This document shows, piece after piece, positions 9,335 through 25,410 of a DNA stretch of 26,580 bases (position 1 is its first letter; every line of letters begins with the position of its first letter). Source of the stretch: a virus; IMG/VR virus record IMGVR_UViG_3300020473_000108, positions 1 through 26,580 of that record; one strand, given 5' to 3'. The notes beneath the pieces were generated by a model. The model made no database searches. It saw only the letters and a program-made list of their open reading frames with translations, and was not told the DNA's origin. Position numbers and translations under genes: made by a program.

Positions 9335-9363
9335 ATTATAAGTTAAAACTGTTTCTAATTCAA
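9335..9363 (-). promoter_or_regulatory. Sigma70-type promoter TTGAAT-17-TATAAT
   Basis: The -35 (TTGAAT) overlaps the iscU stop codon, followed by a 17-base spacer and a perfect TATAAT. It sits in the only gap in this stretch and would drive the 9314-to-left gene series. Confidence 0.55.
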
Positions 9364-9746
9364 AGTCCTTGTTTTTCTTTGTAGTCATTTATTGCTGCCT
9401 TAATCGCATCCTCTGCAAGAACCGAACAGTGAATCTTGACAGGTGGAAGTGAAAGTTCTTCCACGATTTCCGTATTTGATAACTCCATCGCTTTATCAAT
9501 AGTTCTACCCCTAACCCACTCAGTAGCAAGGGAACTAGCAGCAATAGCACTACCACACCCAAATGTCTTAAACTTAGCGTCTTCAATAATTCCTGTTTCA
9601 TCATCTACCTTTATTTGAAGTTTCATTACATCACCACATTCAGGCGCTCCCACAAGACCAGTACCAACGTTATCATCAGTGGAATCAAAAGAACCCACAT
9701 TCCTTGGTTTTTCATAGTGATCTATTACCTTATCTGAATAAGCCAT
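9360..9746 (-). CDS. iscU: IscU-like Fe-S cluster scaffold
   Basis: 128 residues, full length for bacterial IscU. The three cluster-ligand cysteines are present at C37 (PECGD), C64 (FGCGSA) and C107 (HCSVLAED), with D39 as the usual Asp. The motif LPPVK at 100-104, recognised by the HscA chaperone in bacteria, is intact, so the protein could use host Isc partners. IscU builds 2Fe-2S and 4Fe-4S clusters and hands them to client proteins. It starts at the end of the 59-residue gene (TAATG) and shares a transcript with a thermonuclease and a Cys-rich peptide. No capsid tag. Confidence 0.93.
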   Translation of the reverse strand: MAYSDKVIDHYEKPRNVGSFDSTDDNVGTGLVGAPECGDVMKLQIKVDDETGIIEDAKFKTFGCGSAIAASSLATEWVRGRTIDKAMELSNTEIVEELSLPPVKIHCSVLAEDAIKAAINDYKEKQGL

Positions 9747-13976: not shown

Positions 13977-14459
13977 TTAAAATTTAGACACAAACTTTGC
14001 AATATGTTGAGCAAAAGGAAGGAATAAAACTGCCATGAAAAGATTCACACCAGTATGAACCATTGCGATATGTTTTGTGATACCTGTTGGCATTCCATCT
14101 GATACAAGAAGTCCTGCAAGCCAGATAGTTCCAGTAGTTCCAATGTTAGCACCAAGAACTGCACCAATCGCAGCTGGTAAAGGTAATGCACCACCAGCAA
14201 CCAGACCAATGATTGCAGTTGTTGATAGTGATGAAGATTGCCAAAGAAGAGTCATAATGATTCCACCGAAAAACATATAGATTGGATTTCCAAGAAACCA
14301 CTGAAGATGGTCAATATTTCCCATCGCTTTCATACCACCTGAGAACATCTTTAGACCAATGTAAAAAACAACCAAACCAATGAGTGTCTGAACAACAGGA
14401 TTTGACAGTTCCATTTTTTGGACCCTTTTTATGAGTTTTGCTTTCTTTGATACTTTCAT
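13977..14459 (-). CDS. Half-length Na+/phosphate cotransporter-like membrane protein
   Basis: 160 residues with about four or five hydrophobic segments (about 22-39, 58-73, 80-98, 99-120, 131-150). The hallmark motifs of the Na/Pi-cotransporter family are present once: QSSSLSTT (74-81) and GANIGTT (103-109). Cellular members carry two such repeats; this protein carries one, so it would need to dimerise or pair with a host subunit to form a transporter. A phosphate-uptake role in infected cells is plausible for a marine phage, but a signalling or PhoU-like role cannot be excluded. An AT-rich promoter-like region (TATAAAATA at 14472-14480) lies upstream. Confidence 0.75.
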   Translation of the reverse strand: MKVSKKAKLIKRVQKMELSNPVVQTLIGLVVFYIGLKMFSGGMKAMGNIDHLQWFLGNPIYMFFGGIIMTLLWQSSSLSTTAIIGLVAGGALPLPAAIGAVLGANIGTTGTIWLAGLLVSDGMPTGITKHIAMVHTGVNLFMAVLFLPFAQHIAKFVSKF

Positions 14460-14557: not shown

Positions 14558-15436
14558 ATGACGAGTTTAATCTCTCCAAAAGATTTTACCTCTGTCACCC
14601 ACCAAATGAGATCCTTTTTTCTGGAAAAAGGATTTCTAGAAGTTCACACTCAAAATCGTCTATCTATTCTTGCTGCTTGTGAAGACCCAACAACAGTCAC
14701 CACTTACGAGTATGCAGAACAAATTTGGCCTCTTCCTCAAACTGGTCAGATGTGGTTAGAATACGAACTACTTACAAACCCATCACTTCCCGGCTGTTTC
14801 TGTGTCTCTACTTCTTATCGTCAAGAAGAAAATCCTATAGACGGAAGACACGAACTCATCTTCCCAATGTTTGAGTTTGAAATGCCTGGAACCTTTGATG
14901 ATTTGTTGCAAATGGAAAATGACCTTTGCAAGTTCCTTGGATTTAAGTGCGACCATGGCAGGGCACGACTCACAGAAGATTTCCCTGGCGGAAACTACTT
15001 GAGTATGTGCGGTAAGTATACAGCATCTGACAACTTACTTACCGCTAAACATGAGTCAGATATGTATGATGAATATGGAGATGTTTTCTTCCTCACCCAC
15101 TTCCCTTATAATACCTCACCATTCTGGAATATGAAAAAGTCACCTGTCAAGGGATCAACAGGCGATGATGTAGCACTAAAATGTGATGTCATAATGGGCG
15201 GTATGGAAACCATCGGGTCCGCTGAAAGAGCAGACGATGTAGATGAGATGAGAGAACAGTTTCATACAATATCTGATGGTGGTTATGCAAAATTGTTATA
15301 TAACCTATTTGGTAAAGAACGAGTACTTAAAGAACTTGATGAGTTTCTACAACATGATTTTATTCCAAGATTTGGTGGTGGAATCGGTGTAACAAGAATG
15401 ATTTCTGCTATGAAGAAAGCAAATCTCATTGATTGA
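14558..15436 (+). CDS. Class II aminoacyl-tRNA synthetase core, AsnRS / asparagine-synthetase-like
   Basis: 292 residues on the plus strand, against the direction of nearly every other gene. The parts fit a class II catalytic core: motif 1-like FFLEKGFLEVHT (20-31), motif 2 with Y87-R-Q-E90 and FPMFEFE (102-108), and motif 3 GGGIGVTR (273-280) at the C-terminus. There is no N-terminal OB-fold anticodon-binding domain. That size and layout match the archaeal asparagine synthetase related to AsnRS (about 294 residues), and also stand-alone aminoacyl-AMP ligases. A tRNA gene with an Asn anticodon follows after 61 bases, so tRNA charging is also possible. The superfamily is well supported; the substrate is open. 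Confidence 0.75.
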   Translation: MTSLISPKDFTSVTHQMRSFFLEKGFLEVHTQNRLSILAACEDPTTVTTYEYAEQIWPLPQTGQMWLEYELLTNPSLPGCFCVSTSYRQEENPIDGRHELIFPMFEFEMPGTFDDLLQMENDLCKFLGFKCDHGRARLTEDFPGGNYLSMCGKYTASDNLLTAKHESDMYDEYGDVFFLTHFPYNTSPFWNMKKSPVKGSTGDDVALKCDVIMGGMETIGSAERADDVDEMREQFHTISDGGYAKLLYNLFGKERVLKELDEFLQHDFIPRFGGGIGVTRMISAMKKANLID

Positions 15437-15497
15437 GATAGGATTTGTAGTTCTTAATCTGTATGTTGCATATTTAATATTGACAAGTTAATCTGAC

Positions 15498-15597
15498 TCT
15501 GGGGTGGTGAAATTGGTAGACACGGCACGTTGTTTGCGTGTTGCACACTGTGGGCGACTAAGTGTGTATGTTGGTTCGAGTCCAACCCCCAGAGCCA
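15498..15597 (+). tRNA. Unusual class II tRNA: Leu-type body with GUU (Asn) anticodon
   Basis: Full cloverleaf: acceptor TCTGGGG/CCCCAGA, D arm GTG...CAC with AATTGGTAGACAC (a typical tRNA-Leu D arm), anticodon stem GCACG/CGTGT with loop TTGTTTG (anticodon GTT), long variable arm CACAC/GTGTG, T arm GTTGG-TTCGAGT-CCAAC, and encoded CCA. The U1-A72 pair and G73 match tRNA-Asn rather than tRNA-Leu (A73). Position 37 is U rather than the usual purine. I see no other placement of the anticodon stem that gives a Leu anticodon. It sits behind the synthetase-like gene on the same strand. Confidence 0.8.
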
Positions 15598-15607
15598 AAT
15601 TGAAACA

Positions 15608-15738
15608 AAGAGTGCAAGTTTTCATACATCAATTTAAAATTGATTTTCCTTTGTACGAAAATCTGAGCGGGTGACTAGTTCCGCCGGGTGAGATGGTGCA
15701 AAGTAGTCAGCTTTACGACTCTCACTTCCAACACTCTT
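15608..15738 (+). ncRNA. Predicted four-way-junction structured RNA
   Basis: A perfect 7-bp closing helix (15608-15614 with 15732-15738: AAGAGTG/CACTCTT) encloses three arms. The arms are a long hairpin 15617-15664 (AGTTTTCATAC with GTACGAAAATCT, plus inner ATCAATTT/AAATTGAT), a GCGG/CCGC hairpin 15667-15684, and a GTGAGA/TCTCAC hairpin 15688-15725. It begins 10 bases after the tRNA CCA end, so co-transcription on the plus strand is likely. The pairings also exist on the minus strand, so the strand is inferred. No tRNA T-arm is present. Confidence 0.5.
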
Positions 15739-16523: not shown

Positions 16524-16531
16524 TATTTATG
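16524..16531 (-). promoter_or_regulatory. Late-like promoter box CATAAATA
   Basis: One mismatch from TATAAATA, overlapping the end of thyX and about 32 bases before the small membrane protein start. Confidence 0.4.
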
Positions 16532-17177
16532 TGTTTCGTAGTTCTTCCCATGATATCGGAAACAGTTCTTTACATTCATCGTTTATTAAATTTGCAACAA
16601 TACGTGTTTCGTATTGTGCATCCTCAGCACACCTTAGATTGCAAACCCTAGCAAATGCATAAAGTGTACCACTCCAATACCACTCAGTCATCATACTTTG
16701 TGGTAAGATCATTCGTGCTTGTTCTGGTGCAACACCAGCTCCAATCATCAAATTGTAATTAGAGAGTGCAACATTTTCTACTTGAGATTGTAATGCACCT
16801 GTTCTAATACTTCTGTTAATCCACTCAACATCTTTTTCACTTGACCCTTGTTTCTTGTCTACTGGTCTACCTCTCCATTTCTCTACACCATAAAACTCAA
16901 CTTCAGAGTCAACGTATCTGCGAGAGATTTCGTTCCACGTTAAACCAATCTGATGTTTGACAAGTTGTCTTGCCACAAAGATAGGTGCCTTGATATGAAA
17001 TTGAACTGAACAATGGCCAAATGGCGACCAGTGTCCGTGTTTTGCAAGATATCGTATCAACTTAGTATCTTTTTCTGACATCTCAGATACAGTTTTACCA
17101 AAAGATACTCTCGCTGCATTAACCACTGTTAGATCACTTCCCATGTGGTCAACTACTCTTACTGTCATTTCACTCAT
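16527..17177 (-). CDS. thyX: Flavin-dependent thymidylate synthase ThyX
   Basis: 216 residues, normal ThyX length. It contains AARVSF (21-26), HWSPFGH (49-55), and the signature region RQLVKHQIGLTWNEISRRY (70-88). The canonical RHRx7S is here K74-H-Q-x8-S85-R-R, a conservative variant as seen in some phage ThyX. Later come VAPEQARMILP and the C-terminal CAEDAQYETR. ThyX makes dTMP from dUMP using FAD, NADPH and methylene-folate, feeding phage DNA synthesis. It overlaps the upstream 52-residue gene by ATGA. Confidence 0.93.
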   Translation of the reverse strand: MSEMTVRVVDHMGSDLTVVNAARVSFGKTVSEMSEKDTKLIRYLAKHGHWSPFGHCSVQFHIKAPIFVARQLVKHQIGLTWNEISRRYVDSEVEFYGVEKWRGRPVDKKQGSSEKDVEWINRSIRTGALQSQVENVALSNYNLMIGAGVAPEQARMILPQSMMTEWYWSGTLYAFARVCNLRCAEDAQYETRIVANLINDECKELFPISWEELRNT

Positions 17178-24396: not shown

Positions 24397-24698
24397 TCAT
24401 CCTCATTTGCTAGAATCTCCTGCCAGGTTTGTCGTTCAGGAATCAGATCGGACCATTTACGTAACTTCTCTCTTTTCCTCTCGATTCCTTCAACAATGTC
24501 ATCATGTTTCACCAGACCATGCTCAGTCATCAGTTCAATCATGCACATAACGTCTGCGACTTCACTAGTAAGTTTTTCGATTGTCTCGGCACTTATCTCT
24601 TTGTCAGTATGACGTTTTCTCAACAACTTCGAGCAAACTTGTGTCAGTTCACCACACTCTTCCATCGTTATAATCATCAGTTGTGTTGTTCTATCCAT
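24393..24698 (-). CDS. MazG-like nucleotide pyrophosphohydrolase
   Basis: 101 residues. The metal-binding pattern E13-E14-x2-E17 followed by E46-x2-D49 (TSEVADVMCMIELM) is the MazG/all-alpha NTP pyrophosphohydrolase signature. Such enzymes hydrolyse (d)NTPs to monophosphates, and phage copies have been linked to nucleotide pools or ppGpp. It overlaps the upstream DHODH-like gene by 8 bases, which suggests joint expression of two nucleotide-metabolism proteins. Confidence 0.85.
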   Translation of the reverse strand: MDRTTQLMIITMEECGELTQVCSKLLRKRHTDKEISAETIEKLTSEVADVMCMIELMTEHGLVKHDDIVEGIERKREKLRKWSDLIPERQTWQEILANEDE

Positions 24699-25410
24699 TG
24701 GTTAGTTTCCTCACTAGAGTTCTTGTTTTCAGGGGATTAAAACAAATCGATCCTAAAGATAAATGGTTTGCGCCCGCCGCAAGATAGTCCGACGCTACTC
24801 CAAACGAATCAATACCACCGCCCGCAATTAATTCCAAGCTGTCACCCCATTCGTTCCTTATGAATTCTAAGTGGTTAAGAACGTAGGGGATCAACTCTTT
24901 TCCCGAAAGACCACCCTTGAGAACTGGAAGTGTATTGCAGAGGTGAAGCTGAGTAAACCCCACTTCGTCTATCAGAAAACTTAATTGTTCTGGTGTAATT
25001 AACGGAGAAACTTTGGCGATGCACCACTCACGTTTATTTCCCAGAAAGAAAACGGGCAAGTCATTCCATACTGTTCTTTCTGAAACGTTAGGACATGAAA
25101 GGTTTAGTTCAATTGATTGTTTTTCTGGTATTTTTGATTCTAACTGAATCCAATCGTTTCTTTCTATTCCTGCGATTGAAAGAATTTGATCTGGAAAAGT
25201 TTTTTGAAGACCAACCTCTATTCCTTCATTTGGTAGTCCAAGTGCATTGACCCATCCTTTCAGTTTGAAGTCATAACGTAATGAAGATGCGATTCTCCAT
25301 AATCTCTTCATGACTCCTGCACGATGTTTCAGAGTCCAAGTTCCTGTGACTGAAATTGTATTGTTGAATGAAAGGTAATTACCGAAAGGTGCTGCGATGA
25401 AGATTTTCAT
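24691..25410 (-). CDS. Dihydroorotate dehydrogenase-like flavoprotein
   Basis: 239 residues, shorter than the usual 300 or more. Family motifs are present in order: GLPN (58-61), N103-L-S-C106-P-N108 with the class 1 catalytic-type Cys, K133, CNT (158-160), GGLSG (166-170), AGGGI (196-200) and GANHLSLGSI. These are FMN- and substrate-binding positions of dihydroorotate dehydrogenase, which makes orotate for pyrimidine synthesis. The N-terminal part is reduced: the usual TASG region is replaced by VTGTWTLKHRAGVM. It may therefore be an active short enzyme or a diverged relative. Confidence 0.75.
   Translation of the reverse strand: MKIFIAAPFGNYLSFNNTISVTGTWTLKHRAGVMKRLWRIASSLRYDFKLKGWVNALGLPNEGIEVGLQKTFPDQILSIAGIERNDWIQLESKIPEKQSIELNLSCPNVSERTVWNDLPVFFLGNKREWCIAKVSPLITPEQLSFLIDEVGFTQLHLCNTLPVLKGGLSGKELIPYVLNHLEFIRNEWGDSLELIAGGGIDSFGVASDYLAAGANHLSLGSICFNPLKTRTLVRKLTNG

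Follow-up and report, generated by a model that had tools for sequence, protein, structure and literature searches.

The closest described relatives in size and layout are the asparagine synthetases AS-AR (3P8T, 3REX) and AsnA, stand-alone cores of about 290 aa that derive from asparaginyl-tRNA synthetase (AsnRS) and have a metabolic role. The closest in gene order is a pair identical in arrangement to the one studied here (PHROG 29758) in the Prochlorococcus phages P-SSM2, P-SSM5 and P-SSM7, where the enzyme is annotated as 'tRNA ligase' with a tRNA-Asn gene just downstream. This pair stands in the databases without function, and its public annotation is silent on the type II arm and the odd anticodon loop of the tRNA and on the link to pyrimidine genes. 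In the open-access literature, a scope that makes such an absence weak, we found no described phage AsnRS/tRNA pair and no asparagine route to pyrimidines. Pyrimidine synthesis is generally considered to begin, in all organisms, with carbamoyl phosphate and aspartate transcarbamoylase.

The window analysed here is a stretch of 26,580 nucleotides of viral DNA (IMG/VR record IMGVR_UViG_3300020473_000108). The features used below are:

14558–15436, plus strand: AsnRS-like catalytic core, 292 aa, without the anticodon-binding domain (Pfam, fold, active-site residues)
15498–15597, plus strand: private type II tRNA with anticodon GUU and encoded CCA (cloverleaf and covariation)
15608–15738, plus strand: lineage-specific folded RNA, 131 nt (fold prediction; 8 viral contigs)
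16527–17177, minus strand: ThyX thymidylate synthase, context only (Thy1, E=2.9e-48)
24694–25410, minus strand: dihydroorotate dehydrogenase-like protein, 239 aa (Pfam DHO_dh, 7e-14; PDB DHOD matches)

In the list of open reading frames the enzyme gene starts with ATG at 14558 and its stop codon ends at 15436. An earlier note, made from the letters alone, had called this the sole plus-strand transcript of the window, and the ORF layout agrees: the other family-matched ORFs and a tRNA-Cys gene all lie on the minus strand. The minus strand also encodes an IscU/NifU-like Fe-S scaffold protein (9360–9746, minus strand) and a Na+/phosphate cotransporter-like membrane protein (13977–14459, minus strand).

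The enzyme is an AsnRS-like catalytic core

The enzyme matches Pfam tRNA-synt_2 (E=2.5e-19) and PHROG 29758, a family without assigned function. Against the NCBIfam model of full-length AsnRS (TIGR00457) it scores 32.4 bits, the cut-off being 342.6. Structure prediction with AlphaFold2 from 23 relatives gave a model (mean pLDDT 89) whose top structural matches are to AsnRS, with Z up to 27 and several of them holding Asn-AMP or its analogues, while AspRS, LysRS, GenX/EpmA and AS-AR (Z 23) rank below. The model aligns solely to the part of AsnRS past the OB domain; the N-terminal OB domain is missing, and motif 1 starts near residue 8. Pfam, fold and alignment thus confirm the earlier reading of an AsnRS/AS-AR-like core devoid of an anticodon domain.

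Residues R88, E90, E106, E108, R224 and R280 align with AsnRS residues and are invariant in the family; R88/E90 of motif 2, E106 and R224 of the pocket and R280 of motif 3 were traced across 26 relatives. The pocket Glu and Arg presumably act as in the AsnRS structures known to us. The enzyme therefore shares with AsnRS (class IIb) the catalytic fold (Z 27), motifs 1–3, the pocket pair E106/R224 and the EHE segment. It differs from AsnRS in lacking the OB anticodon domain, in a motif 2 loop one residue longer (NPxxGRH), in carrying PFWNM where AsnRS has KAFYM, in extra helices near residues 228–264 and in being found alongside a full AsnRS in cells. It appears nearer to AsnRS than to AS-AR, AsnRS ranking higher in both sequence and fold (Z 27 vs. 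23), and it differs from AS-AR in a genome context of pyrimidine rather than asparagine synthesis.

A protein of Pithovirus LCPAC304 (BFVD A0A481Z9R2, 340 aa) showed 44% identity to the enzyme model in a structure alignment, so the family may extend to eukaryotic viruses. The enzyme of a jumbo phage (L086) returned no relatives when used as a query.

A chimeric private tRNA is linked to the enzyme in marine phages

The tRNA body occupies positions 15498–15594, followed by CCA at 15595–15597. It folds into a cloverleaf with the anticodon GUU at 15532–15534 and a variable region of 28 nt, that is, a long arm of type II. The Rfam tRNA model recognises it with 42 bits in a local search; ARAGORN numbers its anticodon wrongly. 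The D arm and the variable arm are Leu-like, while U1-A72, G73 and GUU are Asn-like, which upholds the earlier description of a chimeric tRNA with an Asn anticodon. Unlike tRNA-Leu and tRNA-Asn, whose features it combines, the private tRNA is relaxed in the rules of U33 and of purine 37 (the window copy keeps U33 and carries U37), and it lacks the short (type I) variable loop of bacterial elongator tRNAAsn.

In an alignment of 40 diverse private tRNAs, 99.5% of the pair cells were standard and 20 of the 24 pairs had changed on both sides. Double-changed pair cells numbered 287, compared with 72 in shuffles, and none of 500 shuffles reached as high a value. This covariation indicates that the cloverleaf, the variable arm included, is under selection. 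U1-A72 and G73 were invariant in the 40 aligned tRNAs. The anticodon GUU is near-universal, and GUC was found at three loci (L028 and L029, which carry an identical tRNA, and L060).

The enzyme gene is present in at least hundreds of viral contigs among the matches listed. Downstream DNA was parsed for 206 distinct enzyme genes, and loci with at least 250 nt downstream were counted (L005 and L243 were read by hand). A marine clade of 157 distinct enzymes, that of the window among them, was recovered with a support of 0.92. In this clade the tRNA was present at 139 of 149 distinct loci, usually about 10 nt past the stop codon, and beyond it the private tRNA was found at none of 47 loci (clade difference p ~1e-35). 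A separate maximum-likelihood tree gave one tRNA-bearing marine clade with scattered losses. The tRNA at L103 was rejected as a candidate, being an ordinary cellular tRNA-Asn of type I.

The earlier note had suggested that enzyme, tRNA and folded RNA form one linked system, against which enzymes standing without the tRNA in related phages would speak. The tight linkage of enzyme and tRNA is borne out in the marine clade; on the other side, the enzyme is carried with no linked tRNA by related freshwater phages and by a number of bacteria (0/47), so that it has a function apart from the tRNA. When the freshwater records were searched with a tRNA model, most matches were tRNA-Leu, further tRNAs of ordinary type or unusual tRNA-like elements, not the private tRNA.

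Some private tRNAs depart from the common form. In the close relative L005 (3940–4036) a hairpin is inserted into the D loop of the tRNA; its variable region is short, as it also is in L015–L017 and L011. L024 has a truncated copy just 3' of the enzyme gene, and at L092 only joined acceptor ends remain there, as if left by a recombination deletion or an assembly break.

The anticodon loop of the private tRNA

The ribosome requires U33 in a tRNA and, in tRNAs decoding ANN codons, t6A37. Among 104 distinct private tRNAs with GUU, position 33 is U in 82 (79%) and another nucleotide in 22. Position 37 is U in 88, A in 11, C in three and G in two, so that a pyrimidine occupies it in 91 of the 104. 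The other tRNAs encoded at the same loci have U33 together with a purine at position 37 in all distinct cases (28/28); the two groups differ with p=5e-19 at position 37 and p=0.004 at position 33.

Charging with Asn or Asp is directed by the anticodon and G73, and GatCAB amidation of Asp-tRNAAsn by U1-A72; in yeast t6A37 hinders aspartylation, and bacterial LeuRS requires A73 (PMC9976931). The positions retained in the private tRNA are those read by the charging enzymes and the amidotransferase, and the relaxed positions are the ribosomal ones. This pattern argues against a purely decoding tRNA, although 79%, including that of the window, keep U33. With its loop free of ribosomal rules, the tRNA is more readily seen as an acceptor, store or shuttle of Asn than as a plain decoder. 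Three readings of it remain: an Asn acceptor used in decoding, a store or regulator competing for Asn-AMP, and a shuttle that is loaded in the host by AspRS/AsnRS and GatCAB and unloaded by the phage enzyme, this last one agreeing best with the position pattern. Charging by host LeuRS, which the earlier note had weighed, is unlikely given G73, since the bacterial enzyme needs A73.

Cellular relatives adjoin pyrimidine genes

Phage and cellular enzymes are 50–60% identical and share the invariant residues of the active site, among them those of the AsnRS-type pocket, which makes a common reaction likely. At 12 cellular loci the enzyme gene adjoins a class 1A DHOD gene (pyrD) and/or an OPRT-OMPDC fusion gene (pyrEF). 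These are Aureispira (L087, L089), other Chitinophagales (L088, L091, L093, L349, L350, L352, L355), a flavobacterial MAG (L095) and two Myxococcota-like genomes (L099, L100); the identities of selected neighbours were confirmed with NCBIfam. Pyr neighbours are absent at L096–L098, L101 and L103, and in the first three, flavobacterial genomes, the enzyme gene lies near pckA. A full AsnRS is also present in most cellular carriers. Judged by its genome context in cells, the enzyme is more likely to act in pyrimidine synthesis than in asparagine synthesis or in tRNA charging alone; this pyrimidine link comes from the genomes of relatives, beyond the window.

Neither the model nor the pattern search found the private tRNA in cellular carriers, except for a related tRNA in two enzyme-bearing Chitinophagales (L301 and L302, ~1501–1615). 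This is an unlinked type II tRNA with anticodon GUC, U1-A72, G73 and U37. It has a very long variable region and is located away from the enzyme gene.

As to phages, P-SSM7 encodes pyrE. DHOD was found in none of 30 other phage records and was rejected as a regular companion of the enzyme. The DHOD-like protein of the window contains the motifs NALGLPN and NLSCPNV and is possibly the next enzyme of the same pathway. At 239 aa it is smaller than known DHODs, and no relatives of it were found in the viral contigs scanned.

Early pyrimidine genes are mostly missing in carriers

PyrB, scored with TIGR00670, was missing in 10 of 13 enzyme carriers and present in all 14 controls. A larger sample of 249 Chitinophagales genomes, eight of them with the enzyme, gave a complementary distribution: PyrB was absent in 8/8 carriers and present in 225/241 others (Fisher p=2.2e-9). 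CarB was absent in seven of these eight carriers and above the cut-off in 12/12 PyrB-positive controls; it was absent also in carriers G001 and G011–G013. In the flavobacteria with the pckA neighbour (L096–L098) PyrB and PyrC are missing, and CarB is missing where looked for.

For PyrC, eight matches to TIGR00857 in PyrB-minus carriers were rejected by NCBIfam: the weak matches are allantoinases in G001, G002, G005 and G007 and dihydropyrimidinases in G002, G003, G007 and G013. No dihydroorotase was recognised among the examined full-length matches in these PyrB-minus carriers.

There are exceptions. Two carriers from outside the Chitinophagales retain early genes: G015 keeps PyrB and a PyrC and has no pyr cluster, and G009, where PyrB, CarB and PyrC are all present and 18 fragments match the PyrC model, looks like a mixed MAG. 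CarB is kept in G003 and G014, the latter having also a weak transcarbamylase match of 148 bits, under the cut-off. Some Chitinophagales devoid of the enzyme are also devoid of PyrB and CarB, so the losses may partly reflect auxotrophy or lineage. Since carriers keep PyrD/PyrEF, mostly without the preceding three steps, and the enzyme is always there, it appears to feed pyrimidine synthesis.

Proposed function and alternative explanations

From the observed gene family, conservation of the tRNA, linkage, genome context and complementary distribution we infer a substrate and a chemistry for the enzyme, a benefit for the phage and a role for the tRNA. It can be hypothesized, with a little less than even confidence in the whole, that the family descends from an AsnRS core and performs, as its main function, an early step of pyrimidine synthesis in place of CarAB, PyrB and PyrC, the gain for phages and the tRNA role being part of the proposal. 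Like these canonical enzymes, it would supply dihydroorotate to PyrD; it differs from them in being unrelated, in occurring mostly where they are absent and in a proposed route that dispenses with carbamoyl phosphate.

Dihydroorotate is asparagine plus one carbonyl that bridges the alpha-amino and the side-chain amide nitrogen, and Asn-AMP is the normal intermediate of AsnRS. The enzyme may thus bind asparagine and ATP and form Asn-AMP, as AsnRS does, after which Asn-AMP and CO2 or bicarbonate would give an N-carboxyanhydride. The side-chain amide nitrogen would then attack its C2 carbonyl, yielding dihydroorotate and freeing the alpha-carboxylate, and PyrD, PyrE and PyrF would turn the product into UMP. 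Aminoacyl adenylates are described to react via N-carboxyanhydrides when CO2 is present (PMC6462974). A variant chemistry, in which the enzyme makes carbamoyl-aspartate, is also possible. In phages the enzyme would yield pyrimidines past the feedback-controlled step of the host.

The tRNA is absent in most cells and in freshwater phages and would be dispensable for the pyrimidine role, so that the pyrimidine step alone leaves it unexplained. The marine clade may have gained a tRNA derived from a Leu-type tRNA and carrying Asn identity elements. The phage enzyme or the host probably charges this tRNA with Asn, and it would serve the enzyme as acceptor, store or shuttle. The most specific version, in which dihydroorotate arises straight from Asn, bicarbonate and ATP and the enzyme of marine phages is fed by a non-decoding tRNA with Asn made and loaded by the host, seems to us rather improbable.

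Several other explanations have to be weighed against this proposal. It is unlikely, though it deserves serious attention, that a minimal AsnRS charges the private tRNA with Asn to decode AAC/AAU as an orthogonal translation pair, perhaps as a way of withstanding host anticodon nucleases or of increasing the supply of Asn, the pyrimidine link in cells being a later recruitment. Such a pair agrees with the tight one-to-one linkage, with GUU in nearly all private tRNAs, with the AsnRS-like pocket and fold and with U33 being retained in 79%, but not with pyrimidine 37 in 91/104 and non-U33 in 22/104, when nearby tRNAs are normal in 28/28 cases, nor with the presence of the enzyme, but not of the tRNA, in clades of freshwater phages and in cells already having AsnRS. 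We regard as quite unlikely a shuttle in which host AspRS/AsnRS and GatCAB load the tRNA and the phage enzyme, running in reverse, recovers the Asn as Asn-AMP; this Asn-AMP would then give dihydroorotate in hosts whose Asn is formed on tRNA. Here the split between retained and relaxed positions is exact: G34, U35, U/C36 and G73, on which AspRS/AsnRS depend, are kept, as is U1-A72 for GatCAB, and the few anticodon exceptions are GUC, the Asp anticodon. The reported roles of U1-A72 in amidation and of the anticodon and G73 in charging, and the hindrance by t6A37 in yeast, favour it as well (PMC9976931).

The size and domain layout of the enzyme are those of AS-AR, which is among the fold matches (Z 23); an archaeal-type asparagine synthetase (AS-AR/AsnA-like) converting Asp and ammonia to Asn, with the tRNA as a neighbour or a user of Asn, is nevertheless very unlikely, because both fold and sequence appear nearer to AsnRS (Z 27) and because it leaves unexplained the pyrD/pyrEF neighbours and the loss of PyrB, CarB and PyrC. 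Finally, the cellular carriers could be pyrimidine auxotrophs in which the enzyme is a relic or has a regulatory role, with gene neighbourhood and gene losses explained by coincidence of lineage. Relatives that lack PyrB and CarB and have no enzyme speak for this explanation; the adjoining PyrD and PyrEF, however, are kept and look intact, and the same cluster recurs in unrelated phyla, so we find it highly improbable.

If the preferred proposal of an early pyrimidine step is true, the conversion of asparagine in one step would constitute a new pathway, shared by free-living bacteria and abundant ocean phages, and phages would get past the classic feedback-inhibited step of pyrimidine synthesis. 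In its most specific version, a tRNA would also act as metabolite carrier in nucleotide synthesis. The private tRNA, which is conserved except in the features that the ribosome needs, would allow non-translational tRNA functions to be tested, and together with the enzyme it is possibly a natural orthogonal synthetase/tRNA pair.

Other RNA elements at the enzyme loci

The folded RNA of the window is closed by a helix at 15608–15614/15732–15738 (fold z = -2.2), and a pseudoknot between 15672–15677 and 15704–15709 is possible. It had no Rfam match, and its occurrence is confined to 8 viral contigs, where it shows a conserved hairpin and the possible pseudoknot; in some of these it lies 1.2 kb away from the tRNA. 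Its suggested part as the third member of the system was therefore not borne out: not being a steady neighbour of the tRNA and belonging to no Rfam family, it is a local, lineage-specific add-on.

Freshwater phages bearing the enzyme contain several tRNA-like elements whose ends are nearly constant (AGTCAGGTGGCGGAAT...GGTTCGANTCCTGTCCTGACT) and whose middles vary strongly. These have no normal anticodon arm and are not called by ARAGORN. They are located as follows:

L281, 1490–1625 and 640–1425, minus strand: tRNA-like elements
L283, 1490–1645, minus strand: tRNA-like element
L285, 1490–1600, plus strand: tRNA-like element
L299, 1501–1592, plus strand: tRNA-like element

At six further loci (L063, L065, L075, L076, L080 and L081, ~990–1480) the enzyme gene is preceded, at a distance of about 2 kb, by phage tmRNA genes for which tags were predicted, and genes for tRNA-Ala/Glu/Asp come after these tmRNA genes.
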